A stretch of 64,000 nt of DNA. Origin: a virus. The stretch is taken from the IMG/VR virus record IMGVR_UViG_3300032214_000528, positions 62,001 through 126,000 of that record; one strand, given 5' to 3'. The notes under the pieces were generated by a model, which was not told the origin of the DNA, made no database searches, and saw only the letters and a list, made by a program, of their open reading frames with translations. Shown here piece after piece: positions 1-36,780 of this stretch (its first letter is position 1; every line of letters begins with the position of its first letter). Both the position numbers and the translations under genes were made by a program.

Positions 1-748
1 GACTTGAGCACAGCGGCGTGCCAGGATGGATCCAGATCTCCGGGAAAAAACAATCTTTTTTGCCAGGGCCGGGATGGAGCTCCTCCAGCCGGGAAATAAT
101 AATTTGACTACAGCGGCTAGGGGACCAACGGGTCCAACAGGACCAATCGGTACAACGGTGGCGGTGGAGGCGGAGGCGGCGTGCTTGCATCAAGCCCGGA
201 AAATATAATACCGAGGAAGACGGATCCGGGTCCCTGGAAAATAAAACATCGGCTTGGGTATACAGCTGCAGCTTGACAACGGCTTGGGATTCAAAGAGCG
301 GCATGGGATAGAGCGCTCGCAATATATAACGGTGTGAGTTGTGGGACGCAGCTTGTAGCTCGATGCTGGGAACTAATAACTTAACGGTGCGTGTAGCTTG
401 ACAAGCATTTGACAGGGTGGTTACACTTTGCGTGCAAGTGCTCGCAAAGCGGACATAACGGTCCCCGGAAATAAAAACTCGACAGCGCATCACAGCTGCA
501 GCTCCAGACGCTGGTCATCAACTTTAAACATATGCATGGTTGTCTACGTTGACTTTCGAAGTGACGGGGACCAGATCTGAATCCTGGAAAATAGAATGTA
601 ACGTTAGGGCCCGCAGCTCCAGTGCGTCAGCCGGGAAAATATAATATCGAGGAAGACCACCCGGATGGCCGCCTCCTCCCGGAACTAATAATTTGTTTGC
701 CCATGACAGCTACAGGTCGACTCACGAAAACTTTCTTGCTGTTAGTGC
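1..748. other. Gene-poor repeat-rich leader region
   Basis: No convincing gene is seen here. A 60-codon frame at 26-208 lacks a good ribosome site and contains GPTGPTGP-type low complexity, so it is not called. The stretch holds nine copies of a CCGGGAA-plus-AT-rich element (listed separately), several GCAGCT/CAGCTGCAG palindromic pieces (about 264, 346, 492, 611) and TTGACA-like hexamers at about 275 and 398. The last has a weak TTACAC partner 17 bases downstream. It looks like a regulatory or untranslated RNA region. Its base use is more GC-rich than that of the genes to its right. Confidence 0.6.
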
Positions 749-4165: not shown

Positions 4166-5224
4166 ATGGATACAATTACTAAAGACAAGTTGGCTTCTAT
4201 TGGGGGCGACTTTTGGAATATCGTTTCAGAGTGCATAGCGCAAGGTGTGCATGAGGAAACTTCACTACGACTAAATGCAAAGGTATTACCTAGTGGTCGC
4301 TTTGTTGAGCGAGCAAGTGGCGCTGATAGAAAAGCGAGAGAGCGAGCAGGTGCTATGACTCCTAGTGGAGTAGATGTTGCTTCTTTCGAGGCTGATGATT
4401 TCTATGTTCGTCCTAATGGACAAAAGTATTTCACTCGTCAATGGGGAATTCATAAGGACATAGCAGTAATTCGCAAAGCAAGAGAAGCCACCTCAAAATA
4501 TAACTCAGAAGGAATTGGCGACCCACAGTTCGTCCTTCTCTATGGCGCTCCGGGAACTGGAAAAACTGCACTCATTGAGGCTTCATTTTCTGATGAAACT
4601 TTGCATACAATTATTGGAAGTGGAGATACAGAAGTATCTGACTTCTTAGGAAGTTTCGTTCAGACACCTAGTGGAAACTTTGAGTGGATTGACGGAGAAT
4701 TCGTCAAGGCAGTAGAAAATGGTGAGCCACTTCTAATCGACGAAATTGGTTTGATTGACCCTAAAGTTCTTTCATTTGCTTATGGTGCTATGGACGGACG
4801 AAAGGAATTCACAATTCCAATGAACCCTGATAGAGGCACTATCAAAATCCACCCTGACTTTTTCGTAGTGGGTGCGACTAACCCTAACGCTCCGGGAGTT
4901 CGACTTTCAGAGGCGTTGCTATCTCGTTTCGCAATTCAGGCAGAACTAACCACAGATTGGAAACTCGCTGAGAAGTTGGGCGTTCCTAAAACTATGGTGA
5001 GCGTTGCTCAAAATCTCTACAAGAGAAGTCAGGGCGATACTGCTGAAATCTCATGGTCGCCACAGATGAGAGAGTTGCTTGCTTTCCGTTCTACTGCCGA
5101 ACTATTTGGCACAGAGTTTGCGATTGCTAACTTAATCGCCAGCGCACCTGAACTCGACAGAGATGTGGTGGTTGATGTTATTGCTCGGGCGTATGGCGCT
5201 GAGCATAAGCCAGCAAAAATCTAG
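4166..5224 (+). CDS. MoxR/CobS-like AAA+ ATPase
   Basis: 352 residues. Walker A is GAPGTGKT (127-134), Walker B is LLIDEIG (about 189-195), sensor 1 lies in VVGATNPN with N239, and the likely arginine finger is R254 in ALLSRF. The pattern fits the MoxR/CobS branch of AAA+ proteins, which act as ATP-driven remodelers with a von Willebrand A partner. That partner is encoded by the next gene. The N-terminal ~110 residues are a family-unassigned region that may contact the substrate. The target is unknown. Confidence 0.93.
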   Translation: MDTITKDKLASIGGDFWNIVSECIAQGVHEETSLRLNAKVLPSGRFVERASGADRKARERAGAMTPSGVDVASFEADDFYVRPNGQKYFTRQWGIHKDIAVIRKAREATSKYNSEGIGDPQFVLLYGAPGTGKTALIEASFSDETLHTIIGSGDTEVSDFLGSFVQTPSGNFEWIDGEFVKAVENGEPLLIDEIGLIDPKVLSFAYGAMDGRKEFTIPMNPDRGTIKIHPDFFVVGATNPNAPGVRLSEALLSRFAIQAELTTDWKLAEKLGVPKTMVSVAQNLYKRSQGDTAEISWSPQMRELLAFRSTAELFGTEFAIANLIASAPELDRDVVVDVIARAYGAEHKPAKI

Positions 5225-5249
5225 TTCCCTGCTAGATGTTGGCTAGTGG

Positions 5250-5279
5250 GGTGGGGGCTTCATGGGTGTAGCCCTCACC
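5250..5279 (+). other. 10-bp hairpin downstream of MoxR gene
   Basis: GGTGGGGGCT and AGCCCTCACC form a stem with a 10-base loop and no T-run. It may reduce read-through or stabilise the MoxR transcript end. Confidence 0.4.
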
Positions 5280-5318
5280 TACCACTCAGGGGTAAAAGCG
5301 AGGGAAAGCTTTGACTCC

Positions 5319-5331
5319 TACGATCAAAATT
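5319..5331 (+). repeat. TACGATCAAAATT repeat, copy 2
   Basis: Direct copy of the 13-base sequence at 3540. It lies in the gap between the MoxR-like and VWA genes. Confidence 0.6.
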
Positions 5332-5366
5332 CGCAGGACTCACCTAGAGGCAGATAGCCCTAGATG

Positions 5367-5395
5367 TTGCAGGTAGATAGTTAAAAGTGTATGAT
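5367..5395 (+). promoter_or_regulatory. Promoter of VWA gene
   Basis: TTGCAG (5367-5372), a 17-base spacer, then TATGAT (5390-5395). This allows separate expression of the VWA gene. Confidence 0.75.
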
Positions 5396-5442
5396 AAACC
5401 TATCGTTGGACACACGATACAAAAGAGAAAAGGACGAACGAC

Positions 5443-7221
5443 ATGGCACACATTAAGCCACTAGAAACAAAAGGCTCAGGGGTCAAGACACCTACTGAGT
5501 GGCTACCAGTTGGCTACGAAATTGGATTGCTAGTTAATGAGTGGTCTGAGCGAAGCGACATTGTTGCTTGCATTGGCACAGACAAAGGTGAAGGCGCACC
5601 TGCTTGCTTTATCCCTTCACTCGCTGAGGTGCAGGTAAATACGATTGAGGCGTTTGGAGAAGGCATTACTCCTAATCTGATTGACGACCTTACAAAGCCA
5701 AAGAACCAGTTTGAGTTTCCAAAAGCAGTAGGTGCAATTATGCACGAAGCCTTCCACGCAAAGTTTTCTAGTTGGGATATTGCTCAGGCAGGTAAGGAAC
5801 TAAAGCAAGATGAGTTTCAGGCTTTGATGTTGCTAGAGGAAGGTCGCATTGAGGCACAGGGAATTATTGCTATGCCTAGAGCAAAGAACTTTTTGCGAGC
5901 AAGTGCTATGGGTTTAATTATTGACGAAGCAAAAGAAACTTTCGCTGATAACTCTAGCGTTGGGTCTGCTTGCCAGTTGGTGGGATTGGCTCATGCTCGT
6001 ATCGTTGCAGGGTCATTACTAGAAACAGAAGCAACAGATTTAATCAAGGCAGTAAATGATTTTCTAGGTGCTGACCTAGTTGCAAAGTTGATTGCAATTA
6101 TTGAGAAGTTCCAAAGCCACACTCGCCACTCAGATATTTCTGCTTGCTATCCATTAGCGATTGAGTGGGCTGAGTTGGTCAAGGAAGCAAAGAAGGAAAA
6201 GGGAGAACCTACTGCTGAGGAAATGCAGGAGTTCGCAAAGATGATGAGCGAACTTATGGCAGACATGGACTCAGAAGTTTCTGAAAATGTTTCAGATGAA
6301 CTATCAAAGCAACAGGACTCAGAGGCTATGAAAGAGTCTGCTGAAAAGAAGTCAATGAGTTCTAAAGAGCAAAAGAAAAATGAGGAAATCTCTCGTCAAG
6401 TATTCTCAAAGAGTTCAGGTCCCGGAGAATTCCGAACTGCCTCTAAGTTGATTGAGAAGCGAGCGCCTATTGCTTCTGAGAGAAGTGCGACAGTAAAGAT
6501 TGCTAGAGCATTGGAAAAAGCAAAGTATCGTGAGAAGGACATTACAGAAGTAGATAGCATTACACCTCCGGGGCGACTACGCACTAGAGCAATTATTCAG
6601 AGCAAGGCGCTTGCACAAAGAGGAATTCATAAGCAAGCAGAGGCTTTCCGCAAAACAGTTCGCAAGCACACAGACGAACCAACACTTTCAGTTGGAGTCA
6701 TGGTTGATATTTCAGGGTCAATGTCGAGTGCTATGCAACCAATGGCTTCTACTGCATGGATTATGTCTGAGGCAGTTCGTAGAGTTCAGGGTCAATGCGC
6801 TATGGTTTATTACGGCTCAGATGTTTTCCCAACACTCAAAGCAGGTCAGCGACTAAAAGATGTTTCAGTTTATTCTGCACCTGACGGAACAGAAAAGTTC
6901 GACCGAGCATTTCGTGCATTGGACGGCTCACTCAACCTTCTCAATGGAACTGGCGCTCGTTTGCTAGTAGTTGTGTCGGACGGACATTACACAAGTGAGG
7001 AAACCGAAATGGCTCAGCGTTGGCTAAAGGCTTGCACCCGAAATGGCGTTGCAGTTCTATGGCTTCCGATTGGCGACAATGGACGGCAAGCAGAGGAAAT
7101 CTGCAAAGGGGCGAACGCTCAGGTCGTGGCAGGGATTACCAGCCCAACCGAGTCGGCATTAGCGATTGGTCGCACCGCAGAGCGAGTCCTCTCAACCGCA
7201 GGGCAAAGGCAGGTCGCTTGA
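5443..7221 (+). CDS. CobT-like VWA protein with HExxH motif
   Basis: 592 residues. An HEAFH motif at 101-105 is a zincin-type HExxH, seen in the N-terminal domain of metallopeptidase-like VWA proteins. Residues about 260-330 are charged and Lys/Glu/Ser rich, a likely flexible linker. The C-terminal third is a von Willebrand A domain with a complete MIDAS DISGS (422-426) and a later SDG. VWA proteins of this type pair with MoxR/CobS ATPases in metal insertion or protein activation. The start follows AAAGGACGAACGAC. Whether the HExxH is catalytic is not known. Confidence 0.92.
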   Translation: MAHIKPLETKGSGVKTPTEWLPVGYEIGLLVNEWSERSDIVACIGTDKGEGAPACFIPSLAEVQVNTIEAFGEGITPNLIDDLTKPKNQFEFPKAVGAIMHEAFHAKFSSWDIAQAGKELKQDEFQALMLLEEGRIEAQGIIAMPRAKNFLRASAMGLIIDEAKETFADNSSVGSACQLVGLAHARIVAGSLLETEATDLIKAVNDFLGADLVAKLIAIIEKFQSHTRHSDISACYPLAIEWAELVKEAKKEKGEPTAEEMQEFAKMMSELMADMDSEVSENVSDELSKQQDSEAMKESAEKKSMSSKEQKKNEEISRQVFSKSSGPGEFRTASKLIEKRAPIASERSATVKIARALEKAKYREKDITEVDSITPPGRLRTRAIIQSKALAQRGIHKQAEAFRKTVRKHTDEPTLSVGVMVDISGSMSSAMQPMASTAWIMSEAVRRVQGQCAMVYYGSDVFPTLKAGQRLKDVSVYSAPDGTEKFDRAFRALDGSLNLLNGTGARLLVVVSDGHYTSEETEMAQRWLKACTRNGVAVLWLPIGDNGRQAEEICKGANAQVVAGITSPTESALAIGRTAERVLSTAGQRQVA

Positions 7222-12490: not shown

Positions 12491-12796
12491 ATGGATCAGA
12501 TTATGGATACACGAACCGTTATGTTTATTGGAGATTATTTTTCAATGATGGTTACGGTAGGCGTTCCCGAAGAAGCGGTAAAAGAGGGCGAGATCTATGA
12601 AGATGCCTGTCTTAGAGTAGCTGGGACTTTAATGAAAGAACACTACGGCTGGGATGTTGTTGCCGTAAGTAATCACATAGGGGTTTTAGATGAGGGAGAC
12701 CCTAACTGCGAAACTTGTTATGGGGCTGGAAAGATGAAAGCCGAGGTAGCTGGTGTGGCAAGAGATGTAGAGTGCCCCGATTGTTTTAATGGTTAG
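12491..12796 (+). CDS. DnaJ-type zinc-finger-like small protein
   Basis: 101 residues. The C-terminus carries CETCYGAG and CPDC, the CxxCxGxG / CPxC pattern of DnaJ-type zinc fingers. The N-terminal ~65 residues are an unassigned alpha/beta domain. It may bind unfolded protein or nucleic acid; neither is shown. The start follows AAAGGGAAAAGTT. The stop lies in a TAGGGGTAAAAA cassette. Confidence 0.75.
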   Translation: MDQIMDTRTVMFIGDYFSMMVTVGVPEEAVKEGEIYEDACLRVAGTLMKEHYGWDVVAVSNHIGVLDEGDPNCETCYGAGKMKAEVAGVARDVECPDCFNG

Positions 12797-13718: not shown

Positions 13719-13961
13719 ATGCAAATAGTTCAGAAGGTTTATCACCCTAACGGGAGTTCAGCTCCGTTTGTTGTGGCAATAGTTGATGACCCTGCCGAGG
13801 CAGATACTAAATTAGTTATTATGTTTGAAGAACCCGAGTGCACTGCGGTTTTCTCTTTAGATGGTCTTATTCAAGATGAAGACATTTCAGAGAAAAACTC
13901 TAGTCACGCCGAGCGTTATGAATACGCTTTGCGTGATGAGCTGTGGGATAATCGTTACTAG
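13719..13961 (+). CDS. Small hypothetical protein
   Basis: 80 residues; alpha/beta, acidic. The ribosome site is weak (TTTAGAGGT directly before the ATG). Its stop is part of the TAGGGGTAAAAA cassette leading to the Ntn hydrolase gene, so it is coupled to it. Function unknown. Confidence 0.7.
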   Translation: MQIVQKVYHPNGSSAPFVVAIVDDPAEADTKLVIMFEEPECTAVFSLDGLIQDEDISEKNSSHAERYEYALRDELWDNRY

Positions 13962-13973
13962 GGGTAAAAAACT

Positions 13974-14543
13974 ATGACAACAATAGCGAGTGTTCAAGGT
14001 GATGGCTGGGCTGTTGTTGGTTATGACTCAAGAGTTACCGAGGAAGATGGCAGAACTTATACCTTGCCGAAAGAAGCAGGAAAAGTTTTTAAGAGTGGTA
14101 ATTACATAATTGGTGTTGCGGGAGATGTTAGAGCAATCAATTTAATGACTCACGTTTTTAAGGCACCGCCTTGCACAGGATCAACTTTAGGGGTAAAACT
14201 AGATAAGTTTATGACTGCGGTCTTTATCCCGGAACTAAAGAAATGTTTTGAGGAAGCCTCTTACTCAAAAGATGGCGACCAAGAAAGTCAGATTATGATT
14301 TTAATAAATGGAACTATCTACGAGATAGGCGAAGATTATTCTTGGTGCCACGACATTGCGGGTATCTATGCTATTGGTTCAGGTGCCGACTTTGCTTTAG
14401 GTGCGCTCAATGCTTTATCAGAGGGCAAGAACAGAACTCTTACTACTGCAAGAGCAACGATCAAAACTGCGCTCGCCGTCTCAGCTAAGTTCGATAATAA
14501 GACTTCCGAACCTTTTTACCTCTTGACTCAATACCGAGACTAG
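13974..14543 (+). CDS. Proteasome beta/HslV-like Ntn hydrolase
   Basis: 189 residues. The protein starts M-TTIASVQGDG; removal of Met exposes a threonine, the Ntn nucleophile of HslV and proteasome beta subunits. Asp18 of GYDSR falls at mature position 17, the conserved Asp. A lysine in EAGKVF is near the expected Lys33 site. YAIGSGADFALGA matches the GSG strand motif. No propeptide is present, as in HslV. Likely a phage protease core or a relative of the family. No cognate ATPase is adjacent; MoxR is 9 kb away and is not an unfoldase of this type. Confidence 0.87.
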   Translation: MTTIASVQGDGWAVVGYDSRVTEEDGRTYTLPKEAGKVFKSGNYIIGVAGDVRAINLMTHVFKAPPCTGSTLGVKLDKFMTAVFIPELKKCFEEASYSKDGDQESQIMILINGTIYEIGEDYSWCHDIAGIYAIGSGADFALGALNALSEGKNRTLTTARATIKTALAVSAKFDNKTSEPFYLLTQYRD

Positions 14544-14647
14544 CAATCCCCACAAACTGCGCCATTGGTGTAGTGGTCTTGATTGATTTGGAACTTCTGC
14601 CCACACTTCCAACAGTTGATGTAAATCATTACTGCTTTTCTAGCCAT
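14540..14647 (-). CDS. Zinc-ribbon microprotein, leftward
   Basis: 35 residues on the minus strand. CWKC (residues 12-15) and CGDC (32-35) give a Cys4 ribbon; the chain ends immediately after the last Cys. GGGAGAAACATA is a ribosome site of the same type as the 18-19 kb leftward genes. A TATGAT -10 lies at 14679-14684. It overlaps the 3' end of the Ntn hydrolase gene by four bases. Confidence 0.7.
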   Translation of the reverse strand: MARKAVMIYINCWKCGQKFQINQDHYTNGAVCGDC

Positions 14648-21514: not shown

Positions 21515-23215
21515 ATGGGTATTTTCACCAACGACGATTCCACACCAGTCACACCCGCTCCTAAAAAATCTGCCCCGTCAGCTTTATCTACTATTTTTAC
21601 ATCTAACGCACAAACAGTTGCCTACTCAACTCCTCGGGCACTTACTGCTGCAGCAGCGCAGTTAAAAGTTAATGACAAGGGAGAATACGAACAGTTTAGA
21701 ATTCGTCGCTCTGCAGGTTCATCTGCATGGCAAGCCGAAGCTTGGGAGTACTACGACGCAATCGGTGAAGTTAAATATGCTTTTAATCTTGTAGCATCAG
21801 TTGTTTCACGAATTAGAATTTATGCAGCAGTAATTGATGATCCAGCAGAGGCACCAGTATCAGTTCGCAACTCAGACAAAGTCGATGATCGTCTTGCACA
21901 AGCAGCAGAACGTGCATTAGATAGGTTAAACTCTGCATATGGTGGACAAGCAGGATTACTTAAAGATGCAGCTCTCAATCTTTCAGTTGCGGGTGAGTGC
22001 TATCTCGTACAAATGCCCGCTCGTCCAGGACACGGTCTTCCTGAGTCTTGGGATATTCGTTCTGTTGACGAAGTAACAACAGATCCAAAAGGTGGCTTCA
22101 ATGTCATTGGTCGCCGTGAGCAGGGATCTAACTCACAAAGCTCTAACACTAATTTAAATACAAAGCTTGGTAAAAATGCATTTATAGGACGCATCTGGCG
22201 TTCACATCCTCGTTATTCAGATGAAGCAGATAGCTCTTTAAGAGGTTTGCTTGATCTTTGTGCTGAACTTCTTCTATTGAATAGGACATTCCGTGCGACT
22301 GCTCGTTCTCGCCTTAATGCTGGCGCTCTTTATCTCCCAGATGGTCTTTCGGTTGCGGCGCAAGCGGATCCAGACTACCCCTACGATTCTGAGGATGGTA
22401 TCGGCCCAAACTTTACTGCTGAAGAAGCAGAGGACGAATTCGAAGAACAATTAATGGATGCGATGACGACTCCAATCAGAGATGAAGAGTCTGCATCAGC
22501 AGTTGTCCCACTTATCATTCGTGGCCCAGCGGAACTTGGCGACAAGATTAAGCAGTTTAAGTTTGAGCGTTCATTCGACCCAGCACTTGCACAACGTGCT
22601 GACCGTGTTCTCGAGCGCATTCTTCAGGGACTAGATGTTCCAAAGGATGTTGTAACAGGTCTTGCAAATGTTAAGTACTCAAACGCACTTCAAATCGATG
22701 AAACTCTCTATAAATCACATATAGAACCTTTGATGCTGCTTATTGCAGATGCACTAACTGTTGTTTATCTTCGTCCTTATCTTATTGCAAGTGGTTTCAC
22801 TGAAACAGATGTAAATCGTCTTGTTGTTTGGTATGACCCATCAGCAATTGCAACTCGTAATGACCGTGCATCAGATGCTGATTCAGGATTTGATCGTGGA
22901 GCAGTTTCATACGACACATGGCGTCGTGCTCATGGCTTCTCGGATCAAGATGCACCAACTCCAACAGAGATGGCAATCCGTATGCTTTCAGAGCGTGGAG
23001 TGCTTACACCAGAGCTTACAGAAGCAATGCTTGGAGCAGTTGCACCAGATGTTATGGCTGCAATACGTACTGCACAACAAGAAGCATCTGTTGCCCCGCT
23101 ACCCCCAGAGGTTGAGCAAGCACTTCAGCAAGCATCTGCAGGTGCAGAGGCAACAGGAAATGTTGCTGAATCCCCAGATGCAGAGACAGCACCTGAGGGA
23201 ACAGAGAATGTCTGA
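21515..23215 (+). CDS. Portal protein
   Basis: 566 residues. Portal-like layout: an N-terminal disordered part (residues 1-48, Thr/Ala rich), then WEYYDAIGEVKYAFNLVASVVSRIRIYA, SVAGECYLVQMP, WDIRSVDEVTTD and a helical stem near KDVVTGLANVKYSNALQIDE. It forms the dodecameric vertex channel. The Ala-rich TAAAA at 44-48 is a candidate cleavage site. Ribosome site GACGAGGAG. The order portal, then protease-like genes, then capsid supports the call. Confidence 0.9.
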   Translation: MGIFTNDDSTPVTPAPKKSAPSALSTIFTSNAQTVAYSTPRALTAAAAQLKVNDKGEYEQFRIRRSAGSSAWQAEAWEYYDAIGEVKYAFNLVASVVSRIRIYAAVIDDPAEAPVSVRNSDKVDDRLAQAAERALDRLNSAYGGQAGLLKDAALNLSVAGECYLVQMPARPGHGLPESWDIRSVDEVTTDPKGGFNVIGRREQGSNSQSSNTNLNTKLGKNAFIGRIWRSHPRYSDEADSSLRGLLDLCAELLLLNRTFRATARSRLNAGALYLPDGLSVAAQADPDYPYDSEDGIGPNFTAEEAEDEFEEQLMDAMTTPIRDEESASAVVPLIIRGPAELGDKIKQFKFERSFDPALAQRADRVLERILQGLDVPKDVVTGLANVKYSNALQIDETLYKSHIEPLMLLIADALTVVYLRPYLIASGFTETDVNRLVVWYDPSAIATRNDRASDADSGFDRGAVSYDTWRRAHGFSDQDAPTPTEMAIRMLSERGVLTPELTEAMLGAVAPDVMAAIRTAQQEASVAPLPPEVEQALQQASAGAEATGNVAESPDAETAPEGTENV

Positions 23216-24185
23216 CGCAAAAGCCCCTAAGAAAGATCAAATCAAAGGTTCTAAGAAAAACGCTAAAGGATCTGCATCAGGTTCTCGTAAAGTAGTTTTT
23301 TCTAAAGCAGTTGAAAAATCTCTTGCAGATAAAGTAGCAACTCACAACGAGAAAGCTAGAGAAGGCCGTCGTGCAACTCTAGGAATGCTCAAGGCTGTCT
23401 ATCGCCGTGGTGCAGGTGCTTACAGCACTTCACATCGTCCCGGTATGACTCGCAACCAATGGGCTATGGCTCGTGTTAATGCATTTTTGAAGATGCTCAA
23501 GTCTGGTAAGCCAGCGAACTCAGCTTACAAGTCAGATAATGACTTGCTCCCAGCAAAGCATCCTCGTTCAACAAAGAAGAACAACTCAATCACTGCTTCG
23601 GCTGGATTAGTTCCAGAAGAATCAGACCTAGCTAATGCTCTCATTGAGATCGCTGAGAAGTATGGAAAGTTCAACGAAGATGCAACAGGAATTTGGGCAG
23701 GATACACCCCAGCCGCAGAAAATAAATACAAAGGAATCGGAGTCAAGTGCTCTAGCTGTGTTCTATACATGGGTAACGGCTCGTGCAGAATCATCGAAAC
23801 AGAAGTCGAAGACGAAGGTAAGTGTCGTTTCGCGGTTATCCCAGATGGGGTCGTTGATGTCGGAGTTCTCGAAGGCGAAAAACTCGGAAACGAAATCCAA
23901 TCCTTAGAAGAGCTTGCACAGATTGCTGAAGAATATAGATTTGAACAAGAGTTGGCAGTAGAGATACTTCCTGAAGAAGAATACGACTCACCAGAACACG
24001 CTATTCTTTCTTTAGCAGAGTTTTCAGGGTTTGGTTATGAAGCAGAGCATGCAGTTCGTGCATCTTGGCTTCGTGGAGTTCGCAGCGGTGACGATCCATT
24101 CAAAAGAGCATCTAATTTTGCAATACTAGGTTATGAAAGCTTAGATTCAGATTTGTTACCTAAAAAGGGAGAAGATAATGTCTAA
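23208..24185 (+). CDS. Head-module protein with Cys-box and DLLP motif
   Basis: 325 residues, starting in an overlap with the portal stop. Basic, Lys-rich N-terminus (residues 1-50), then a helical region (RATLGMLKAVYRRGAG, MARVNAFLKMLKSG), a motif NDLLPAKHPRST followed by NSITASAG (126-133), an acidic region, and a Cys box (CSSCVLYMGNGSC). The DLLPxxHPRST-TASA combination recurs in the giant downstream protein. Likely a virion or scaffold-associated protein; no enzymatic call. Confidence 0.8.
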   Translation: MSDAKAPKKDQIKGSKKNAKGSASGSRKVVFSKAVEKSLADKVATHNEKAREGRRATLGMLKAVYRRGAGAYSTSHRPGMTRNQWAMARVNAFLKMLKSGKPANSAYKSDNDLLPAKHPRSTKKNNSITASAGLVPEESDLANALIEIAEKYGKFNEDATGIWAGYTPAAENKYKGIGVKCSSCVLYMGNGSCRIIETEVEDEGKCRFAVIPDGVVDVGVLEGEKLGNEIQSLEELAQIAEEYRFEQELAVEILPEEEYDSPEHAILSLAEFSGFGYEAEHAVRASWLRGVRSGDDPFKRASNFAILGYESLDSDLLPKKGEDNV

Positions 24186-27100
24186 GAAGAATCAGAGACA
24201 GCTTCACGTTCTCTCTCAAAGCGAGACTACATACAGCACTCGTCAACAAGCACGTCTAATCCGTAACGAAGCACTACAAATGATTGAGGCAGCTAATGAA
24301 TTTACAACTAACACCCGTAGAGTTAATCGTCGCTCAGCTTTCCGTGTCATTTCTCGCTCTCTTCATTCTTCTGAAGGTCTCCCATTTTCAGTTCGTAAGC
24401 ACCAAGCGCTCACAGAACTCTCAAACTACATCTCACTTGCAAAACACAACAAGGTAGTTGGCTTAACAGCATTTAACACCGATCTTCTTCCACTTACACA
24501 CCCACGTTCGACTCGTGAACACTCTATGACGGCTTCAGCGATGATTCGTTCACATATTCAATGGGTTACAGATGATCCACGAATCACAGATGAGAACGCT
24601 AAGGCACTTATTGCATCTGCAATGCTTGCTCCAGCTAACTCTCCAGAAAAACTTTATGCACTTACACGCTTAGAGAACCTTCCACAAGGCCATGTTCCAC
24701 TAGAAGCAATGACTGCAGCATATGGTGGAGGAAACTCTGCTGCTGCAAAGCGTGCTCGTGTTGCTCTCCAGCTCCGCGACCGTTTGGGCCGCTGGGTTGA
24801 GATGTTTGGTGGCCTTGGTATCAAGGTAAAGCGTCGTGACGGAAGCACAGCAGCTCTTACAGGTCGTGCAGTAGGGCAGAACATCTTTAGTCCACAACTT
24901 GCAGATGTCGAATTAGAAGATGGACGCATTGTTGCAGTACCAATTCGTCAAGCACGAGGTGCAACATTCCTTCCAAGCCCTGCAGCAAAGAAAGATGGCT
25001 TTACACCTGCTGGTTCAACAGCAGATGACATGGATGACCCAATTATCGATGAAGCAGATCTTACATTTATGGAAAGTCCTAGCTCATTTGAGAAAGATGA
25101 GAGAGGAAGCAAGCAGGGAACAACAAAATATACTGATCAAGCCTACGATGTAGTTAAGTTTGATGATAACAAGCGTGCTCTTGCAGATTTAAGTGAGACA
25201 AACAAACTTAGAGCAGAGCGTGACTTAGACGATGCAGCAGTTGATAAGCAAGGCGAGACAGATCCAGACTCAGGTAAGCAATTTTGGGATCCAGAGAAGC
25301 CAATCTATGCAGTCTCACGTCGTGGCGGAACTCCTTTTGCATATACACAGAACTGGAACGATGCACAGCAAAGAATTCAAGCAGATCAAAGATTCCTTGA
25401 TGAAGAAGAGGGTCGTACACCTCTTGCGAGAATTACTCAGGATGACAACACTCCTGAAGACGAGACTCCACTTGTAGATCAGCAAGATAAGTTTAAGAAG
25501 GAAGAGATCGCACGTCTTCCAGAACAAGAAACAACAAAAGCTCCATCTGATTTTAAATACAAAGTTCCAGAAGATACTTATGAAGTATCTGATCCAACAG
25601 CGCCATACCGCTCCGTATCTGAGTATGACGATCCTGCATCTCTTGCAAATATGTTCCAAGGTGATGAGCTCATTGATGGTCTTGATGATGCAATGGATAC
25701 TGGTCTTGGTCGCCTCACATTCCCAGATGGAACAGATTCAGATGGAGAACCTACTGGTGGAGAGCAAGAAGTTCCAGCAGAAGCAATTCTTAAAGCAATT
25801 GATGAAAAGGGCGGGGATGCAGAACTTGCACTTGCTCAAGCATACGATAAGCGTCTAGGGACAACAGAAAATGAAGACGCACTTGCTGCAAAGCGTGAAG
25901 CAGATAGAGGAGCAAAGGTTGGCGAGCCAAAGAAGCTCGGCGAAGTATTCGACGAAGTAACAAAGGCTCCAGAGCCAGAAGCAGAAGCACCAGTTGAAGA
26001 AACTCCTGTTGCAGAGATCCCAGAGATTACTGAAGATGCAGAGCCATCCACATATCCAGCTCTAATTGATGGACTTACAGAAGAAGAGCAAGCAGAGTTT
26101 GAGAAGAGCAAAGACTACACTCCATATCTCACAGAAGATGCTCCAGTCGAGTGGCCAGAAGGTTTTACACCGCCACAAAATAGAATTCTTAGCGAAAAAG
26201 AGCGTGCACAAGCTTTAGAAATTGCTAGCTCAGATATTCCTGACGAAGATCTAGCCGAGTCATACAACGGTGCAATCAAAAATAAATATGACGAAGATGG
26301 TTATGCACCATTTGGTGATTTAGACGAGAACAACGAAGTGCAGACAATTCAAGTACCAAGTGAAGTTCTTCGTGATGCAATGAAGCTTCGCAACTTTGAC
26401 ATGGACGAAACTAATCAACAGGTTGTTGACGGAACTTGGGATGAAGTAGACCCAGAAGATGAAGTTGCATTGGAAGAAGAACCTGTAGCAGAGATTCCTA
26501 CACCAAAGACTCCAGATGAAGGCAAGGGAACTAAGTCTGGCAAAGATCCTCTCAAGGAAGGTTGGGGATCGGAAGACTGGATTGACGAAACATCTAAGGA
26601 TCCTCGTTTCCACGAGATGCTTAAGAAGAATAAAGATTTTGCAAGACTTACTGGTTTCTTTAACGATCCAACATTCGATAGCCCTCTTCTCTCTGACTAC
26701 CAAGACAAAGATATGGAAGGCTTTGAGTCTGGCAGTGAAGTAGAGGCAATCGATCTTGGCGAGTATGGGTTTGAACCAGGACCTTCAGCCCGTGTTCAGT
26801 ATGCACTTGATATTTTGCAAGATCCTACACAATCAGCTCGTGCTGGTTTCAAGGACTGGAGAACTGGTGAGCGCTCAGCAGAGAACGAAAGAAATATTCT
26901 CAAGGCAGCAGATGAGCAACTAGATCTTGCTAAGCAGGATCTCTCTGAAAAAGATGTTATTGAAAACAAAGCAATTGATTCTGTCCGTGCAACTCTTGCA
27001 AAAGAAATTGCAAAGCTTGACAAGCAGATCGAGAAAGATAAGAAGGCTGAGGAAGAAGCAAAGATTGCTCCTCAGGTTTCTTACAAACTAAGAGGAGATC

Positions 27101-30100
27101 GCTTAGAGCTTCGCTCTGGTAAGAAGGCTCCATTCAGAAGACAAGATGTAAAAGACTTTTTAGATGATAATGGTTTTGATTGGAACCCAGATGCTAAGGC
27201 TGAAACAAAATCTGGTATGGATGAAGCAAGCGCTAAGAAGTTCCTTCGTGATTTAAGAGATAAATATGGTATTGATCTTCTTCCAAGAGAAGGACAGCCA
27301 CCAATCGACCTTGAATCAAAGGACGAAGTAATTGAAGCTCCTTCAACTCCTGAAACTCCATCTGCAAAGCCAAAAGAAAAGTCTCTCAAAGAAAGAGAAG
27401 AAGAAGAGTTCGGTAAGTTCTTACCTCTTCCAGATCCCTTACCTGAAGGTTGGGTAAAAGATGAAGAGCGTGGATTCAACGAAGTTTATTACATGCAAGC
27501 TGTTGAAAACGAAAACGGCGATAGAATTGTTGGAACATACGGTAAGGATGGAAGTAGAGACCCATACTGGACAGTAAGCGCTGACTTTGACTCGCCAGAA
27601 TCATTTAAGTCTTTTGAAGATGCACTTGATTTCTATAACAAAAATTCTGGAAAGCAAACAGAAGACAGTGCCGAACCAGAGACTTCTGAAGACACAACAC
27701 CTGTTGAAGATGTAGTTGAGCTATCCCCTACTCTAAACGAAAAATTACTAAAGCGTGATGGCATCCAGATGGTAAAGATCACTGGCCCAAATGGAGAAGA
27801 GATTGAGACACCAGTCTTTAATCTTCGTGGTCGCCCTATGGTTTTAATCAATGTTAATGGTGTACGCATACCGTTCTACATTAGCTCGGGTAAAGGCGGT
27901 AAAGCAGGTGTTCCTGTTGGAAAGTGGTATCCAATCTTTGGAATCGGTACCGATGGCTGGTTTAATAAGGGCAACGAAGAAGAGATTAACAACTACTTCG
28001 ATAGTCCAGAGCTAAGAGAGGTAGCTGAATGGCTTAACTCTAATATTGGAGATATCCGTAAAGAAGATATGCCAGAGTCTGACGAAGTCACTGACGAGCT
28101 TCGTGCACAGATAAACCAAGACCTATCTCCAGGTCGTTACTATGAAAACGCTGTTGTCTACGGAAATAGAGCTCTTGCCCTTGCAAAAATTAGGGGAGAT
28201 GAAGAAGCAGTAAAACAAGAAGAAGCAATTCTTAAAAAATACCTAGACGATATAGCAAAATTTGAAGCTGAAAAGAAAAAGCAAGAAGAAGAAGGACAGG
28301 AAGAGCCAACTGTAGAAGAAGTAGTTCCTGAAGAAGAAGAAGTAAAAGAGCCTGTTGCTGAAGAACCTGCGGCAAAAAGGAATATCTTCCAAGAATCACT
28401 TGACATAATTCAAGAGGGACTTCTTGATGCATTGTCAGAAGAAGGTCCTAACATAACTGTCTCAGAGTTAGTAGATAGACTGAAGCGTAAGCTAAAGGGT
28501 GATGACAAAGTTGTAGGAGATTATGGCACTAGAGGTGACATGATTAGCAAGCTCATGTGGGCTAAGTGGGGCGCTGGTTTCTGGAGAAACGAATCTCCAT
28601 ACATTAGAAGATCCATGAGCGAATACAAGTCTGAATTAAAGAAGCTCTCAGACGAAGAACTTATTGCATTAGTTGATATGTATTACGACGAGATTGATGC
28701 TCGTCTTGAAGCTGAGAGAGAAGCATCACGACCAGTTGAACCAACGCCGCTTACTCCTGAAGAAGCTGCGGAAGTAGAGAGAAAGCGTAGAGTTAAAGAG
28801 CTTCGTGATAAGAAGCGCAGAGAGCGTGAAGACAAGCTTCTAGAAGAAGATGATAAGGCTAAGGAAGAAGAAGAAAAGCCAACCCCTGCAACCCCTGCAA
28901 CCCCTGCAACCCCTGCAACCCCTGCAACCCCTGCGAAGCCAACTCCTACAACCCCAGAAAAGCCTAAGCCATCTGATTACGAAGAAGACACTCCTGATGG
29001 ATTTGTTTATGTTGACAAGAGCGACAATGACGTTAAAGATGGAGATGAAATTAATCTCCCTAGTGTTGGCTGGGTAAAAGTTAAGAGAAAGGTTTTCCTT
29101 CCTGGTAGAACCACTGCAGATGTTGTCTATGAAGATGAAAATGGTAATGAAGGTACTGGTTTCTTACCTAGAACAGTTGAGACTCGTGCTAAGCAAGCTC
29201 CTGCTGAAGAACGCAATCGTAAGACTCCAGCAAAGCTTAGAGTCGGAGAAGAAGTCTATCTTGTTGATAAAGATGGAGATGGTCCTGGCTGGGTAAAGGT
29301 TCTAGAAGTAAAAAAGAGAAATTGGAATTCAGGGAACAGTAAAGGCGACCAAACCACATGGGAAATATGGTACGAAGATGCAAATGGAAAGCGTAGTCTT
29401 TGGACATATAACTACTGGAGCAGTAGCAGTTGGGGCGGAGACGGTCAAACTGGTAAGTTCCCTACTCGTCCTGCAACATCTAAAGCACCAGAACCTGTAG
29501 AAGAACCTTCAGTAACAGTTACGCCTCGCATTGCTGCATCTAGAACAACAGATCTTAAGCCAGGCGATGTTATGACTAAGGACTTCTTTACAGTCACAAA
29601 TGTAGAGCAAGGATTCGAGAAGAAGCGTGATGGAGAAATGGTTCCAGCTTCTCGTGTCACTGGTTACTATCCTGGCGGAGTAGAGCAGTCAAGCAAGCTT
29701 TGGGCAGACGACGTTTTATTTGATGTATATCGTGATGTAACTCCTCCTGCAAAGGGAGATCTTCCAGAACTTAATCAGCCAAAGATGGGTGATTATGGAA
29801 AGCTCACAAAGGTCAATGGCGAATGGGAGCTAAAAGACCCAGCTGAGCAAAAGCAATTTGAACAAGACATGGAAAAGTATCAGGAGCAACTATCCACACA
29901 GAAGGCTCTTTGGGAAGCTCCAGTTGTTGAAGTTCCTGTAAAGGAATTTACACCTGAAAACACTCTCCACGTTGTCAACGCACTTGGTAAAGATCTCAAG
30001 CCAAACGATATTGCATTCCGTCGTGACGAGAATGGTGAGCTCAGCGAGTTTTTCGTTATTGAAGAAGTTCTTCCAGGCACAGTTATGGTCCCTCGTGCAG

Positions 30101-33100
30101 ATGGAAAGCCAGCAGAAGAGAAGGTTCAAATCCGTGGATACTATCCAGGACACGAATCACAAGTTAAGTCTTGGAAGACTGGCACATCTGTTGAAGTTCT
30201 CCGTGGGGAACAAGCAGCAAACATTCCTGCAAAGGGTGATAAGCCAGCAATCGATAGCATCGAGCCAGGAACTCTCAAGGGTCAGGCATACAAAGATAAG
30301 AACGCAGAAATTTCAGCATTAAGAAAAGAAGCTGGCAAGGCATACACACCTGATCTAACAGCCTCAGAGATTCCTGCAGTACTTGTAGAAAGACCTAATA
30401 GCTTTAATCGTGGAAACCGCCCAGCGTTCTTTGGCAAGGCTGCAGAACTTGCAAACCTCAAAGATGGTAAAGCAATCTCTGATGCTCTTAAGGGCAAGCG
30501 AGTTGTCTACTTCGACTTTGAAACAGTAGGAACTGGAAAGTTTGATAACGACAATCCTGATGCACCAATTCAGGTTGCAGCATCTGTCTGGGAAGGTGGA
30601 GAAAAGGTTGGAGAGATCAACCTATTCATTAACCCAGGAGAGCCTCTTGGGGACTATTACTATAAAGAAGATGAAAACGGAAACAAAGTTCTTGATCCAG
30701 AAAAGCTTCTCAGCTCAGACGGGCAGACAGTTGATGATGCATTCTTAGCATCTCAACCATCTATTGAAGATCAGCTTCGTGCATTTGCAGAGTTTGCTGG
30801 ACAAGATGCAATCTTTGTTGCACACAATGCAGAGTTTGATACAAACACATTCGAGAAGTGGGCTCAGAAGCTAGGTATTGACTACAACATGGATGGTGTT
30901 ATCGATACTCTTGAATTAGCAAAGAGCATGACACCAAAGGGCAACAAGCTCGGTCAAGTTGCTAAGCGCTACGGTATTGAGAAGACAGATGAAGAGTGGC
31001 ACGATGCTAGAACTGACTCTGAGGTTCTCCCAGCAATCCTAGAAGGTTTGCTTGGAGATATGAAGCCTGACAATAGAGAGTTTGATCCTGCAACTCGTCT
31101 TGCAGAGTTTGAAGCTAAGCGTTCTTCTTACAATGAAAAGCTAGAAGCATTTAAGAAGCAAGAAGCAGATCTTGCTATGGCTGAAGCAGTCAAGCGTGGT
31201 ATGGCTGGAGAGCCTGTATCTATTGATGAAATGCTTGGCAAGACCAAGACAACATCTGGCTTTGGTTCTGAAGGAAGCACAGACTCTGCTGAAGAGTATG
31301 CATATGAATCAATCTTTGGTGGAAAGATTAACAACTCTTGGATCGAAGATGATGAAAACACATTCGTTGTTGACGAAGGTGCAGCAACTGTAGGAGATAT
31401 TAAGATTGGTGACTTCGTACCTGCTGAGGGTGGCGGATACCATGAAGTTGTTGACCTGCTTGCAGACCCAGAAGATCCAAACGGAACTATCGTTGTTCGT
31501 AAGATTGTATCTAGCGGTTTGCTATACAGCACACGAGTTACAGAGAAGAAGTCTCCAGGAATTGGTTGGTCTAACGGCAAGGTTCTTAAGGGAACTCTCC
31601 GTCGTCGTAACGAACTAGCTGGTAAGACACCTGCAGAAGTTAAAGCTTTAGTATCTAAGCCAGTAGTAGTTGCTCCAGAACCTACAACAAAGGAAAAGAC
31701 TCCTACACCTAAGGGTAAGAAGTCAATCACTCCAGAAGAGACACAAAGTGTCGTCTCGGATGCGATTGAGGCAATTACATCTGGTGCTAAGTCAGATTCA
31801 TCTGTTGAAGATGCGGTAAAGGGTCTTCCACTTGATGACACCACTAAGTCTGCAGTTCTTGCAGATCGTGAAGATGCATCTATTAATCACCTATCAGCAG
31901 ACGGTGTTGCTCTTAAGGTTGGCGACAAGGTTCGCAACGTAAAGAATGGCCGCATGGGTGAGGTAAGAGCAATTCTTACAACATACGGACCTCGTGGATA
32001 CAAGAATTACGTCAAGGTTAAGTTTGACGATGCTGCAAAGCGTGAAAATGTTTCAGCAGGTTCACTACAGATCATTAATCCTGATGACGGTGGCGGTTTC
32101 TTCACAGATCCAACTCCTCCTGCAACTGGAGAGCCAGTAAACCCTAACGAGACACCAAAGTCTGCAGAAGAATTAACTTCACTTCTTACTGGAGATGTTA
32201 CAGATAACACTCCTGCAGTTGAAGTTCCAGAAGAGCCTGTAGTTATGGATGCTGAAGATCGAACAAGAATTTGGAAAGAAAACGAAGAAAAGAGAATGAA
32301 GTACGCTCTTGATCTTAACTATCGCCAAGTAAGCCCTGAAGCATTAGAGGCACTTACAGCAGCAGTTCAAGATATATCTCAATATGACAAGGGTCATCAA
32401 AGATCTGTTACAGCATTTATGCCAAGTCTTTCTACTGGATTGCCAGTAGAAAGAACATTTACGTTTGTAAAGCCAAGTAAAAAAGATCTTGAGCGTCGTG
32501 AGGACATGGAAGCAGACGATATTATCGTTATGATTGGTCCTCGCAATACTGAAGCAATTATTAAGTCAGATGGAAGAATTCTTTATTTTGATAATCCATC
32601 TGTTCCAAACTGGAACTTTAGTGTTAGATCTCCAGATCTATACTCAGCTATTGAAAAATCAGACGAGGTCACTTTTCCTTTAGGGGAAAATCCTGATCTT
32701 CAAAATATGGGAATGATTTCAAATAATCAAGAGTTCCCTAAAGATGCTCTTGGAAGTCCAGATGAGATAGAAGATCCAGATTTTGTTGTAGATAGCCCTG
32801 ATGCAGAGCCAAAGGGAATCAAGCCAACCAAGCAACAGCAAGCAGTTATAGATGCTGTAGTTGCTGGCAAGGATGTAATTGTTCAAGCTCTTGCTGGAAC
32901 AGGTAAGACCAGCACACTGAAAATGGCTGCAAAAGCTGTTGCAGAAAAAGATCCAGACAAAACTATTCTTTACATTGCATTTAACAAGGCTGTAGCTGCA
33001 GAACTTAATGCAGATCCAGATCGTCCTTCAAATATGATTGCACGAACCAATACTCAGGTTGCTTGGCACCATTCACCTAAGTGGATGCAAAAGCGTAGCT

Positions 33101-36100
33101 TTGACAAAACACTGCTTTCACTGCCAACTGATGTAGCTGATCATCTCGAGATCGGACCAGTTAAGGTTACAGAGATTAAGAAAGACGGATCAAAGGTAGA
33201 AGCAACTCTTTCAAGTAAAGATGTCGTTGGAGTAATTCGTCAGGCAGTAACAGCATTTGCACAGAGTGCAGATGAAAAGATTATGCCTCAGCACTTCACA
33301 GATAACTTTGTAGACATTCCTGAAGTGTTTATTGACTACGCAAACCGCTGGTGGGACGACATCTCAAGCCCTAAGGGTAAGCTAGCGATGAATCAGTCTT
33401 ACCCAGAAAAATATGTTCAGCTAAATGGCATAGATGTAACAATGTCTCCAAGTGAAGCGGGTGCAAACCCAGCAACAATGATCCCTGCAGCAGACATTAT
33501 CTTCTTTGATGAAGCACAAGATATTAATGATGTTGCTGGCGATTGGGTTCGTAAGCAAACTGTACAAAAAGTATTCGTTGGCGATGGAAATCAATCTATC
33601 TATGGTTTCCGTGGAGCAAAGGATCAACTAGATACTCTTGAAGGAGCAGATAAGCTTCAAATCACAGAGTCGTTCCGCTTCGGTCCAAACATTGCAGCAC
33701 CTGCCAACCGTTTCCTTGCTGTTGCTGGAAAGCCAGAAAGAGTTGTTGGAGCTGGAAAAGATCAAGGTAAAGTTGTAGAAAGCCTTGACGAGATGCCAGA
33801 TCCAGATGCAGTTCTTGTCCGCACAAACGGTGGTGGATTTAAGGCAATGCTTGAGTATCTTGAGCAAGGAAAGACTGTCGGAATTAGTCAATCAACTAAG
33901 ACAAGACTTGAAGAAGTTATTGACACAACAAGTTGGCTCATGGGCGGAAAGAAGGGCTCAAAGCCAGCTAAGTACAACGCAGAAATTGGAATGTACGACT
34001 CTTGGGAAGAACTCTCAACTGCAGTACGAGAAGGAAAAGCTCGTCCAGTTAAGGCTTTCTATGACTTAGTCACTCAAAACGGAATGCAAAGTATCCGTGA
34101 CATCCTAGATCGTGTTGTCGTAGAGCGTGAAGAGACTGAAGAAAGTAAGGCAGCTCGTAAATCTTACGTCCCTATTAAAATAGATGATGCATTAGATGGA
34201 TCTACAGGATCTTTAGGTTCTGGATTAAAGTACGAGGTTAAAGGTAATACGATAGTTGTAACTGGATTTACAACACCAGACCTTGCAGAAAAACTTCGTA
34301 ATGCAGGTATTCCAGCTAGAAAAACTGGAAACAAGGTTAAAAACTCTAAGGGCGAGCTTAAAGACGAATGGGTCAGAGATAAAGTAATTGAAGATGACCT
34401 TGAGAGAACAGATAAACTAAATAACATTAAAAAGGCAGTTGCTGGAATTATAGATTCAGCTTCAGCAGATGTAGTTGTAACAACAGCACATCAGTCAAAG
34501 GGTCTGCAGTGGAACAAGGTTCGTATTTATGATGACTTCTGGGGTCCAAAGTTTAATAAGGAAACTGGCGAGATTGATATGCCATCACCAGAAGAACTTC
34601 GTCTTGCATATGTAGCAGTAACTCGTGCTCAGAAAGAAGTCTACTTAGGTCCTCTAAGCTGGGTTAACGATTACACATCTGATGAAGATGAGCAAGCTTC
34701 GTTCTCTCTGGAATCAATGAATAATATTGAAACAGACCCAGTTCCTGTAACACCAGAAGAGTTTGGTGATGAAGTACAGGAAACTGCAAAGAAGATCGAT
34801 CCAGCCACTCAAAAGATTGCAGATGCAATTATTGCAGCCCTTGAAGCAGGAACTGCTCCTTGGCGTAAGCCTTGGACTGGCGGGGGATTCCTCCCAACTA
34901 GCGTTGCAACTGGCAAGATGTATGAAGGAACAAACGTTCTCGTACTCTGGGCTGCTCAAGAGCGCAATGGTTGGTCAGATAATCGCTGGCTTACATACAA
35001 GCAAGCAGAAAAGCTTGGCGGAAACATTAAGCGTGGCGAGAAGGCAACTTCAATTATTCACTGGACTCCAAAGTTCAAGGATGTCAAGCAGCCAGATGGA
35101 ACTATCGAAAAGGTATTCGTTTACACACCTCCAAAGATCATCAATGTTTTTAACGTAGAGCAAGCAGAAGGAATTAATCTTCCTCCACTTGTTAAGGGTG
35201 ATCCAATTCCAGTAAGCCAAGCAGAGCAAACTCTTCTTGACACATACAAGGATCGTCCAGAGATTTTCTACAAGTCCCAAGACAGTGCTTACTACTCTCC
35301 AGTAACTGACACAATTCACTTGCCGCTCCGTGAGCAGTTCGGTGCAGAGCAAGACATCTTTGAAACCCTAGTTCACGAACTTGCACACAGCACAGGACAC
35401 ACATCTCGTGTGAACCGCAAAGATCTTACAGATAACTACGGAACTCACAAGGCTAGCCGTGGTGAAGAAGAACTTATTGCAGAGATCTCTGTAGCATTAG
35501 TTGCTGCTCGTCTCGGCGTTGAGATTGACTTTGGAAATGTTGCTGCATACGCAAAGTCATGGCTACCAGCCGTAAAGAATGACCCAACAATGATTATCAA
35601 GGCAGCCAAGCAAGCACAAAAAGCTGTAGACCACATGCTAGGAAAGCAAGAAGAGCCAGCAAAGTTTGATGAAGACGGAAACTCAACTGAGCCTGTTGGC
35701 GAAGGTGTTGGTAGCGAAGGTTTAACTGGAGAAGAGATCTCAGAAGAGGCGGACTCAAGTGAAAAACCTAATAGTAGAGGCTATGTCCGATCAGAAATAG
35801 ATCCTACCGATTTAAAGGTTGGAGATAGATTAGATATCTCTGGGAAGAAAAGAGTCGTAGCTGTTAATGCTAGAGAAGATAAGGTTCTTGTATCTACCAA
35901 AGTTATAGGTTCTAGAGGTGGCGGGTTCGAATCTTTTGATAAAGATAAAAAAATATATGTTTGGAGAAAACCAGAAAGCGTTGGTAGCGAAGGTAAGACT
36001 GGCGACGAGATTGCAGAAGATGCAGGACTTAAGCCAGAGTCAACTCCTGAACCTAATGTAGGAGAGCAGGGTAGAACTGGAGAAGAGATTGCTCTAGAAG

Positions 36101-36780
36101 GTGATATAAAACCTGCTGGTACAAAAGGTGGACATGATCTTAGCCCTAGAGAAGTATTTAACAATAATTCAGCCCGTAGTGATCGAGATGTTAAAAAAGT
36201 ATATGGTGCAGAAGAAAAATGGACGCCTCAAATACAAAAACCTTTTAAACGACCTGTTGCCCCTAAACGTGCAGATTTTCCAGATTCAGACTCATATGTA
36301 GCAGCTTATAAAAAATACTCTAAAGAGTTTGATAACGCCTACCGTGAAAGCTCAACATATATTGAATCTCCAATAGGAGAAAAAAACCTAGACGGGTCTG
36401 CAAAAGGTGTTAAAAACTATGTAGAAGATATAATCACTGCTGATTGGTTTGTAGAAGCCTTTGGTGACGGAGGACAAATGGGCAGACCCCCAGTCAGTTT
36501 GATCACTAGTAAAAAAGCAGGTGGTAAATATACTTATGGCTTTAAAAATGGTAAATATATGTCATCACTAAAAATTAACAGCCTTTTATCAACAAATGAA
36601 CCAGCTATTCTTCACGAGATTGCTCATTTTGCTACAGCAATTAGCGTGGCAGAGGGATTTGATGCTCATGGTGTAGAGTACAGAATGAATTATATCTATA
36701 TCACTGATAAAGTACTTGGTCGTGAAGCTGCAGAAAATCTTAAAGACGCTTACAGAAAGGACAATCTAAATGTCGGATGA
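24178..36780 (+). CDS. Giant polyvalent head-module protein
   Basis: 4200 residues. N-terminal [11 protein letters not shown] and HSMTASAM (115-122), then a LRDRLGRW small domain (about 200-262), and long acidic linkers with KOW/SH3-like modules (two LKPGD.../LKPND... copies near 1790 and 1940). A DEDDh exonuclease has D2113/E2115, H2216-D2221 and H2275-D2280. An SF1 helicase has GTGKT (2907-2911), FFDEAQD (3109-3115) and a C-terminal AVTRAQ near 3480. ArdC-N (about 3538-3666) is followed by a zincin HELAH (3733-3737), three VGSEG-type repeats and a second zincin HEIAH (4146-4150). It overlaps genes at both ends. Likely packaged and delivered with DNA to process or protect it. Confidence 0.88.
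28881..28934 (+). repeat. Tandem 9-bp coding repeat (AACCCCTGC x6)
   Basis: Six perfect copies of AACCCCTGC encode TPA x6 in the linker of the giant protein, between charged and Pro-rich segments. A likely site of slippage in copy number that keeps the frame. Confidence 0.9.

Follow-up and report, generated by a model that had tools for sequence, protein, structure and literature searches.

A proteasome-type Ntn hydrolase encoded by a WhiB-carrying phage, with a conserved upstream gene as its proposed partner

The window, i.e., the whole stretch of 64,000 nucleotides analysed here (positions 62001-126000 in a viral record of 135,031 bases that may be incomplete), contains a gene that the first-pass annotation described as a phage-encoded proteasome/HslV-like hydrolase without an adjacent unfoldase. 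This raises the question of what kind of peptidase the gene encodes, and with which partner, if any, the enzyme would work. Phage homologues of the proteasome, AAH and PPH, were published in 2021 (Fuchs, Alva and Lupas, PMC8665760), and other phage members are mentioned in single-genome reports (PMC7823757, PMC8953757, PMC11841896). As judged by predicted fold, aligned residues and profile, the open reading frame (ORF) encodes a proteasome-type Ntn hydrolase, and is a new member of an already known kind. The features discussed are collected in Table 1.

Table 1. Positions of the protease gene, its active-site codons and associated genes
Feature	Position	Strand	Basis or remarks
Proteasome-like Ntn (threonine) peptidase, P0001	13974..14543	+	ATG to TAG, 189 aa, complete
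Thr2 codon (Thr1 nucleophile after predicted Met removal)	13977..13979	+	Model residues 2..189 align with BPH 1..189; aligned with HslV Thr1
Asp18 codon (putative catalytic Asp17)	14025..14027	+	Kept in 92/92 relatives, 11/11 deposited phage members, E. coli HslV
Lys37 codon (putative catalytic Lys33)	14082..14084	+	Kept in 92/92 relatives, 11/11 deposited phage members, E. coli HslV
Gly-Ser-Gly 135-137, GSG strand	14376..14384	+	G135, G137 in 92/92
P80, 80-aa acidic protein of an unnamed family, proposed protease partner	13719..13961	+	Gene neighbourhood
P80 stop TAG overlapping likely Shine-Dalgarno AGGGG of protease	13959..13964	+	Sequence reading ...TACTAGGGGTAAAAAACTATG
101-aa ORF upstream, the sense-strand neighbour conserved most after the pair itself	12491..12796	+	Relatives in 8/14 dereplicated P80 loci; outside proposed mechanism
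Second proteasome-like protease, 176 aa	C1:38720-39250 (L002:1501-2031), outside window		Profile and fold

The ORF begins M-T-T-I exactly at its ATG, as had been claimed, and residues 1-185 matched the PHROG_1040 'peptidase HslV family' profile (E 8.7e-26). The only Pfam match up to E 10 was PF00227, with a score of 17.4 bits against a gathering cut-off of 22.4 (E 0.0037), so that the protein falls below the threshold for a 20S beta subunit; the S78 prohead-protease profile was not matched. By single-sequence phmmer, the best solved relative was BPH (5ovu, E 8.9e-6). An AlphaFold2 model of the protease (me0656d129a10; input alignment of 46 window and viral sequences) had a pLDDT of 92.7 and a pTM of 0.88, and BPH again ranked first among its structure matches (5ovt_A; Z 20.6, 2.6 A, 175 aligned residues with VIA-align; Foldseek E 9e-13). 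HslV, 20S beta subunits and Anbu were also among the matches, Z was at least 8 in 1000/1000 aligned chains, and the best BFVD match was an uncultured Caudovirales protein named HslV (TM 0.95). By the terms of the first-pass annotation, a predicted fold unlike Ntn hydrolases or catalytic residues missing from the alignment would have overturned its reading. Neither was seen: the predicted fold is that of the proteasome/HslV/BPH Ntn hydrolases, and the catalytic residues align with those of HslV and other relatives.

Relatives of the protease were collected by two pattern scans. One, a viral scan, found 543 encoding stretches, of which the best 80 were used, and its patterns contain the MTT start or the GSG strand; the other used six patterns, two of which contain Lys37 or Asp174 and none of which contains Thr2. 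The 115 places found for protease-anchored loci were reduced to 94 unique loci by removal of identical proteins, the window's own protease (L001) standing outside the 94. Residues were counted in 92 relatives, with two fragments excluded; apart from a pair of deposited phages, a single MAG contig and the second copy in the window's record, these come from viral contigs, and the 94 loci and the 92 relatives draw in part on the best 80 of the 543. Thr2, Asp18, Lys37, Gly50, Gly135, Gly137 and Asp174 were identical in all 92 relatives, a count for which, at Thr2, the patterns of one scan partly select whereas those of the other do not. Position 136 was Ser in 61 and Thr in 31. Asp174 and Thr177 agree with the region of Asp166 and Ser169 in the beta subunits of proteasomes. 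Lys37 (mature position 36) aligns with the Lys at position 33 of mature E. coli HslV, and Gly50 with the Gly of the HslV oxyanion region. The active site of the superfamily, given as Thr1/Ser1, Asp17, Lys33 and oxyanion Gly47 in the available text of PMC8665760, is thereby matched by T2, D18, K37 and G50 in the alignment, which also includes E. coli HslV. The Asp at mature position 17, the catalytic Lys and the GSG-type strand of the first-pass annotation were all located where Table 1 places them.

Eleven phage members from deposited records were checked in the same way; the 92 relatives include two of these. Asp18 and Lys37 were present in 11/11, Thr2 in 10/11 (the pT24 member has Ser in its place), and Gly50 and Asp174 in 7/11, the members from MTATph1, E3, 121Q and phiTY18 having no equivalents of the latter two. 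Because of these four members and the Ser of pT24, the chemistry of the wider family may vary. For the window's protease, dN/dS was 0.09-0.21 against six relatives, which indicates purifying selection. Together with the intact catalytic set and the 543 relative-encoding stretches found in one viral scan, these values (about 0.1 to 0.2) leave virtually no room for the idea that the ORF is a decayed or chance reading frame with no function, in favour of which nothing was seen.

The description 'HslV-like' is fair, though the protein is not HslV. It scored far under the HslV equivalog cut-offs (26.6 of 137 bits for NF003964, 24.2 of 157.75 for TIGR03692), and no HslU or ClpX-type AAA+ protein was found in the 135-kb record. 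The protein and HslV share the T-T-I start, Asp17, Lys33, GSG and the fold, and differ in the H1-H2 linker, which by alignment has 12 residues in the phage protease and five in HslV. The protein resembles AAH and PPH in being phage-encoded, with a Thr nucleophile predicted right after Met, no propeptide and no AAA+ partner found. Identity with PPH was rejected, since PPH has about 140 residues and no helix H2 whereas the window's protease has 189 and contains H2. By tblastn its relatives include Geobacillus and Tenacibaculum phages, a result compatible with AAH membership. A chromosomal bacterial origin was also considered and rejected as far as Pseudomonadota were sampled. This group was chosen by way of the phage-type contig of locus L118, and 17 of its 398 genomes matched at E<=1e-8, one of them through that very contig. 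The strongest match in the remaining 16 had an E-value of 2.5e-22, weaker than those of the viral relatives, which with a comparable profile were 8e-49 or better. A scan of genome contigs gave one relative among 16 pattern matches, on a gammaproteobacterial MAG contig with a phage-type neighbourhood.

BPH (5ovs, 5ovt, 5ovu) is the closest solved structure by both sequence and fold, and, as for the window's protease, no partner unfoldase is reported for it. The likeness extends to only 18% identity over the structure, and the window's protease, in contrast to BPH, is encoded by a phage. BPH is described as a tetradecamer with a long, highly acidic inner pore loop. The model of the phage protease has four helices (52-60, 73-94, 138-148, 156-173), and the loop that connects H2 to the strand after it comprises 11 residues, three acidic and one basic (11-23 residues in the 92 relatives; the alignment with HslV is too loose here for a comparison). 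The enzyme might also be a narrow-specificity Ntn amidase, an isopeptidase or a connectase-like protein ligase rather than a degradative protease. Proteasome homologues do include the ligase connectase (PMC8665760, available text), and according to the accessible parts of a 2017 report (PMC5777263), BPH and Anbu had structures but no in vitro activity, and the partner of BPH was not known. The model, however, has no helix before residue 52, so the two-helix insert that connectase carries between strands 3 and 4 is absent, and in structure the protein stands nearest to BPH, HslV and the 20S beta subunits. We consider a non-degradative enzyme of this kind improbable.

If the protein is a degradative protease, the next question is what would deliver its substrates. 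The claim that no unfoldase partner is adjacent held, and for the HslU/ClpX type the search covered the whole record: AAA_2 (PF07724), the domain of HslU and ClpX, had no match at E<=1 in the 135,031 bases, and the same search matched 14/14 control genomes. Because no HslU/ClpX-type unfoldase was found in the record, ATP-free action is most likely. Searches with PF00004 and PF07728 placed the nearest AAA+ gene, an AAA_5 ATPase of MoxR/CobS type, at 4166-5224; it is followed by a VWA protein (CoxE-like, weak), the two genes spanning 4166-7221 (+). AAA_5 matches occurred in 14/23 records, and in ten of these the AAA_5 gene precedes the protease by roughly 6-12 kb, both having the same orientation. 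As an unfoldase, the AAA_5/VWA pair was set aside, since its distance from the protease is too great to argue pairing.

The record contains three WhiB matches above cut-off. WhiB is described as exclusive to Actinobacteriota in the available text of PMC10202952. At E<=0.001 only Corynebacterium matched among 14 control genomes; at E<=1 five of the 14 did, one of them over cut-off. Because of the three WhiB genes, the host of the phage is very likely an actinobacterium. WhiB was also present in 20/23 protease-bearing related records (own included) and in 12/17 further records, including 10/10 of those bearing a protease. Annotated relatives occur in the deposited actinophages DSL-LC01, Hum25, Pumpernickel and LeeroyJenkins. 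Those of Arthrobacter phage Hum25 (gene 81) and Microbacterium phage LeeroyJenkins (gene 16), both with a named host in culture, are distant (about 30% identity), and no P80 was found beside the Hum25 gene. In a search of 50,697 deposited phage records, the top hit was WJZ48484 of DSL-LC01, an Actinomycetia phage (OQ999401); it is annotated as 'ATP-dependent protease subunit HslV' and shares 49% identity over 98%. This protein differs in having 229 aa with a basic tail and in being a single copy in its record. Its gene is followed directly by WhiB, and no P80 was found ahead of it; the main text of the DSL-LC01 paper (PMC10611076) does not contain the words HslV or protease. In its available text, the 2021 survey described no gene context that was informative as to function, and no AAH in a phage specific to Actinobacteria (PMC8665760), whereas the phage studied here has three WhiB genes and a conserved gene next to the protease. 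Phage proteasome homologues are thus extended to WhiB-carrying phages, which does not prove that the protein is an AAH.

A second proteasome-like protease is encoded 37 kb away in the same record. It shares 37% identity with the first over 151 residues (33-34% in other alignments), has the catalytic set, and gave a model (pLDDT 93.0) whose first match was again BPH (E 6e-11). As it falls in a different branch of a tree with long branches, a recent duplication is improbable. Two protease-profile matches were found in 4/23 and 2/17 records, 33-38 kb apart in all six. The accessible text on the Salmonella jumbo phage pSal-SNUABM-04 (PMC7823757) likewise describes two HslV genes and no HslU; that phage differs in being a proteobacterial jumbo phage for which that text mentions no partner gene. 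Immediately upstream of the second protease, on the opposite strand, lie two ORFs that look HNH-like by eye (L143:7464-8662). Elsewhere the record encodes a tryptophan halogenase (PF04820, E 1.6e-106; L143:13165-14733 = C1:43165-44733), with ThyX on the opposite strand to it (L143:4330-5040), and a 4200-aa polyvalent protein (24178-36780, +) with RNase_T exonuclease, UvrD helicase, ArdC N-terminal and zincin metallopeptidase domains.

The conserved neighbour of the window's protease is P80, a protein with 17 D/E and 6 K/R residues. The overlap of its stop codon with the likely Shine-Dalgarno sequence of the protease gene suggests that the two are translationally coupled, and dN/dS of 0.10-0.13 against three relatives indicates that P80 is under purifying selection. 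The window's P80 had no Pfam match up to E 1 and a best PHROG match of E 0.059, and no match was found in deposited (isolate) phages. A profile search of PDB gave a best E-value of 0.32, and searches with several P80 members gave best values of 0.025 against Pfam (15 members) and 0.018 against PHROGs (3 members). In one P80 scan, 30/94 pattern matches were not relatives. Scans with P80's own sequence and with an alignment together gave 108 viral loci encoding 65 distinct proteins, a set that leans towards closer relatives because one scan contributes the best 80 of 147. With that scope, the protease followed P80 on the same strand in 101/108 loci, the gap being under the 75-nt limit (-4 to 67 nt) in 91 of the 108 and 0.46-1.6 kb in 10, and P80 was the upstream gene, on the same strand, in 101/101 loci having both.

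As a control for shared surroundings, 14 dereplicated P80 loci were compared, among which P80 identity stays below 75% and averages 54%. Of these, 13/14 contain the protease, and the families that come next in frequency on the sense strand occur in 8, 6 and 5 of the 14; families of minus-strand ORFs (9, 8 and 5 of 14) were omitted as antisense shadows of P80, the protease or a neighbour, judged by position. These counts argue that the pair is kept beyond its surroundings, which are themselves partly kept, so that some of the linkage reflects shared ancestry (8/14). Converging on the protease gene and overlapping its stop codon is a 35-aa ORF (14540-14647, -) with two CxxC pairs, zinc-ribbon-like by eye; a similar family was seen in 4/14 of the dereplicated loci.

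The protease might nevertheless act on proteins of the host or the phage by itself, or together with factors from the host, with P80 being just a co-transcribed neighbour that has another job. P80 can exist without the protease, as none was found in seven of the 108 P80 loci or in their whole records (9-127 kb); two of these records, G027 (L199; 127 kb) and G031 (L252; 117 kb), have P80 and WhiB and no protease-profile match. Conversely, P80 adjoins the protease in just 21/94 unique protease-anchored loci, and because the other 73 have no adjacent P80, it is not required by the whole protease family. A further neighbour, as noted, is also partly conserved (8/14). Against independence stand the 13/14 dereplicated loci with the protease, more than for any other neighbour, and the fixed gene order and spacing of the larger set. 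On balance we regard a protease acting without P80 as possible, if rather unlikely.

Other branches of the family pair differently, with a metallophosphoesterase and/or WhiB. Among the 94 unique loci, a metallophosphoesterase lies within 500 bp of the protease in 43, WhiB lies downstream within 1.3 kb in 21 (e.g., L039:12001-12954), and 25 have none of P80, metallophosphoesterase, WhiB or portal. The metallophosphoesterase (phrog_20266), first seen in 33 loci (e.g., L107:61-1242), occurs on either side of the protease, spaced within 5 nt or by a one-base overlap in 21 of the 33. P80 and metallophosphoesterase co-occurred in 0/122 unique proteins; by phrog_20266 the latter was absent from the window's record and present in 4/23 records. 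Partner labels track the protease tree closely (18 changes, compared with 73.8 on average after shuffling), whose deep order, like the placement of the second copy, is unsure because of many long branches. According to the available text of PMC12287305, a mycobacteriophage metallophosphoesterase is reported to act as a counter-defence factor.

These contexts bear on a further reading, i.e., that the protein matures the capsid as an Ntn-fold substitute for the usual serine prohead proteases. A portal gene does follow the protease within 1.9 kb in 23/94 unique loci, 0.31-0.38 kb downstream in 15/18 measured cases, and in 12 loci a coiled-coil-like ORF past the portal was read as scaffold (no family match). 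All 23 also have the metallophosphoesterase, however, so the portal-adjacent cases belong to that branch and not to the window's. In the window, the portal-like ORF (21515-23215; weak PF04860 match, E 7e-4, below cut-off) is 7 kb away, a 1576-aa ORF (37727-42457, +) has a weak S78 match of its own (E 7e-4, 20.2 of 21 bits), and the second copy in the record sits in a different setting. We judge a role in prohead maturation very unlikely.

The reading we favour, with about even confidence, is that of a threonine protease which needs no unfoldase and which P80 regulates or supplies with substrate, this role of P80 being suggested by gene neighbourhood. Host methionine aminopeptidase would remove Met1 and free Thr2 as the nucleophile; Lys37 and Asp18, assigned by alignment, would activate it, with Gly50 at the oxyanion hole. 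The fold suggests that, as in BPH and HslV, the subunits form a closed ring that encloses the active sites. Such a ring would act without ATP on proteins that are unfolded, disordered in part or delivered to it by special means. P80, translated just ahead of the protease, would most likely be a regulator or adaptor: it may open or activate the ring, bring substrate, or restrain the enzyme until the right stage.

A precedent for such a partner comes from BPH, the Thr1 of which binds epoxomicin although no protease activity was seen in vitro, and for which the authors gave 'an as yet unknown cofactor' as one of the explanations (PMC5777263, 2017, available text). The same text names no P80-type partner for BPH. 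Nor was any mention of one found in the available text of the papers on phage members (PMC8665760, PMC7823757, PMC8953757, PMC11841896), in a search for which P80 offered no name and outside which most subscription papers and bioRxiv fell. By analogy, P80 would be a natural candidate, in its own branch, for the missing cofactor. More tentatively, and with some doubt on our part, it could serve a group I proteasome homologue as a dedicated cofactor without being an ATPase, binding the ring to switch on, load or gate it; it would then be the first such within the literature searched.

New in this analysis are the P80 linkage, the second, divergent protease, the alternative partners by branch and the three WhiB genes. 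Proteasome-like proteases are hereby documented in phages bearing WhiB, an actinobacterial marker, and P80 is a concrete candidate partner for one branch of the superfamily, open to direct test by co-expression. With its conserved pair of genes, the system merits such a test. If the proposal is true, this family of phages would have built ATP-free two-component proteasomes, other branches having recruited metallophosphoesterase and/or WhiB instead of P80, and this phage would run two different proteasome-type proteases simultaneously.
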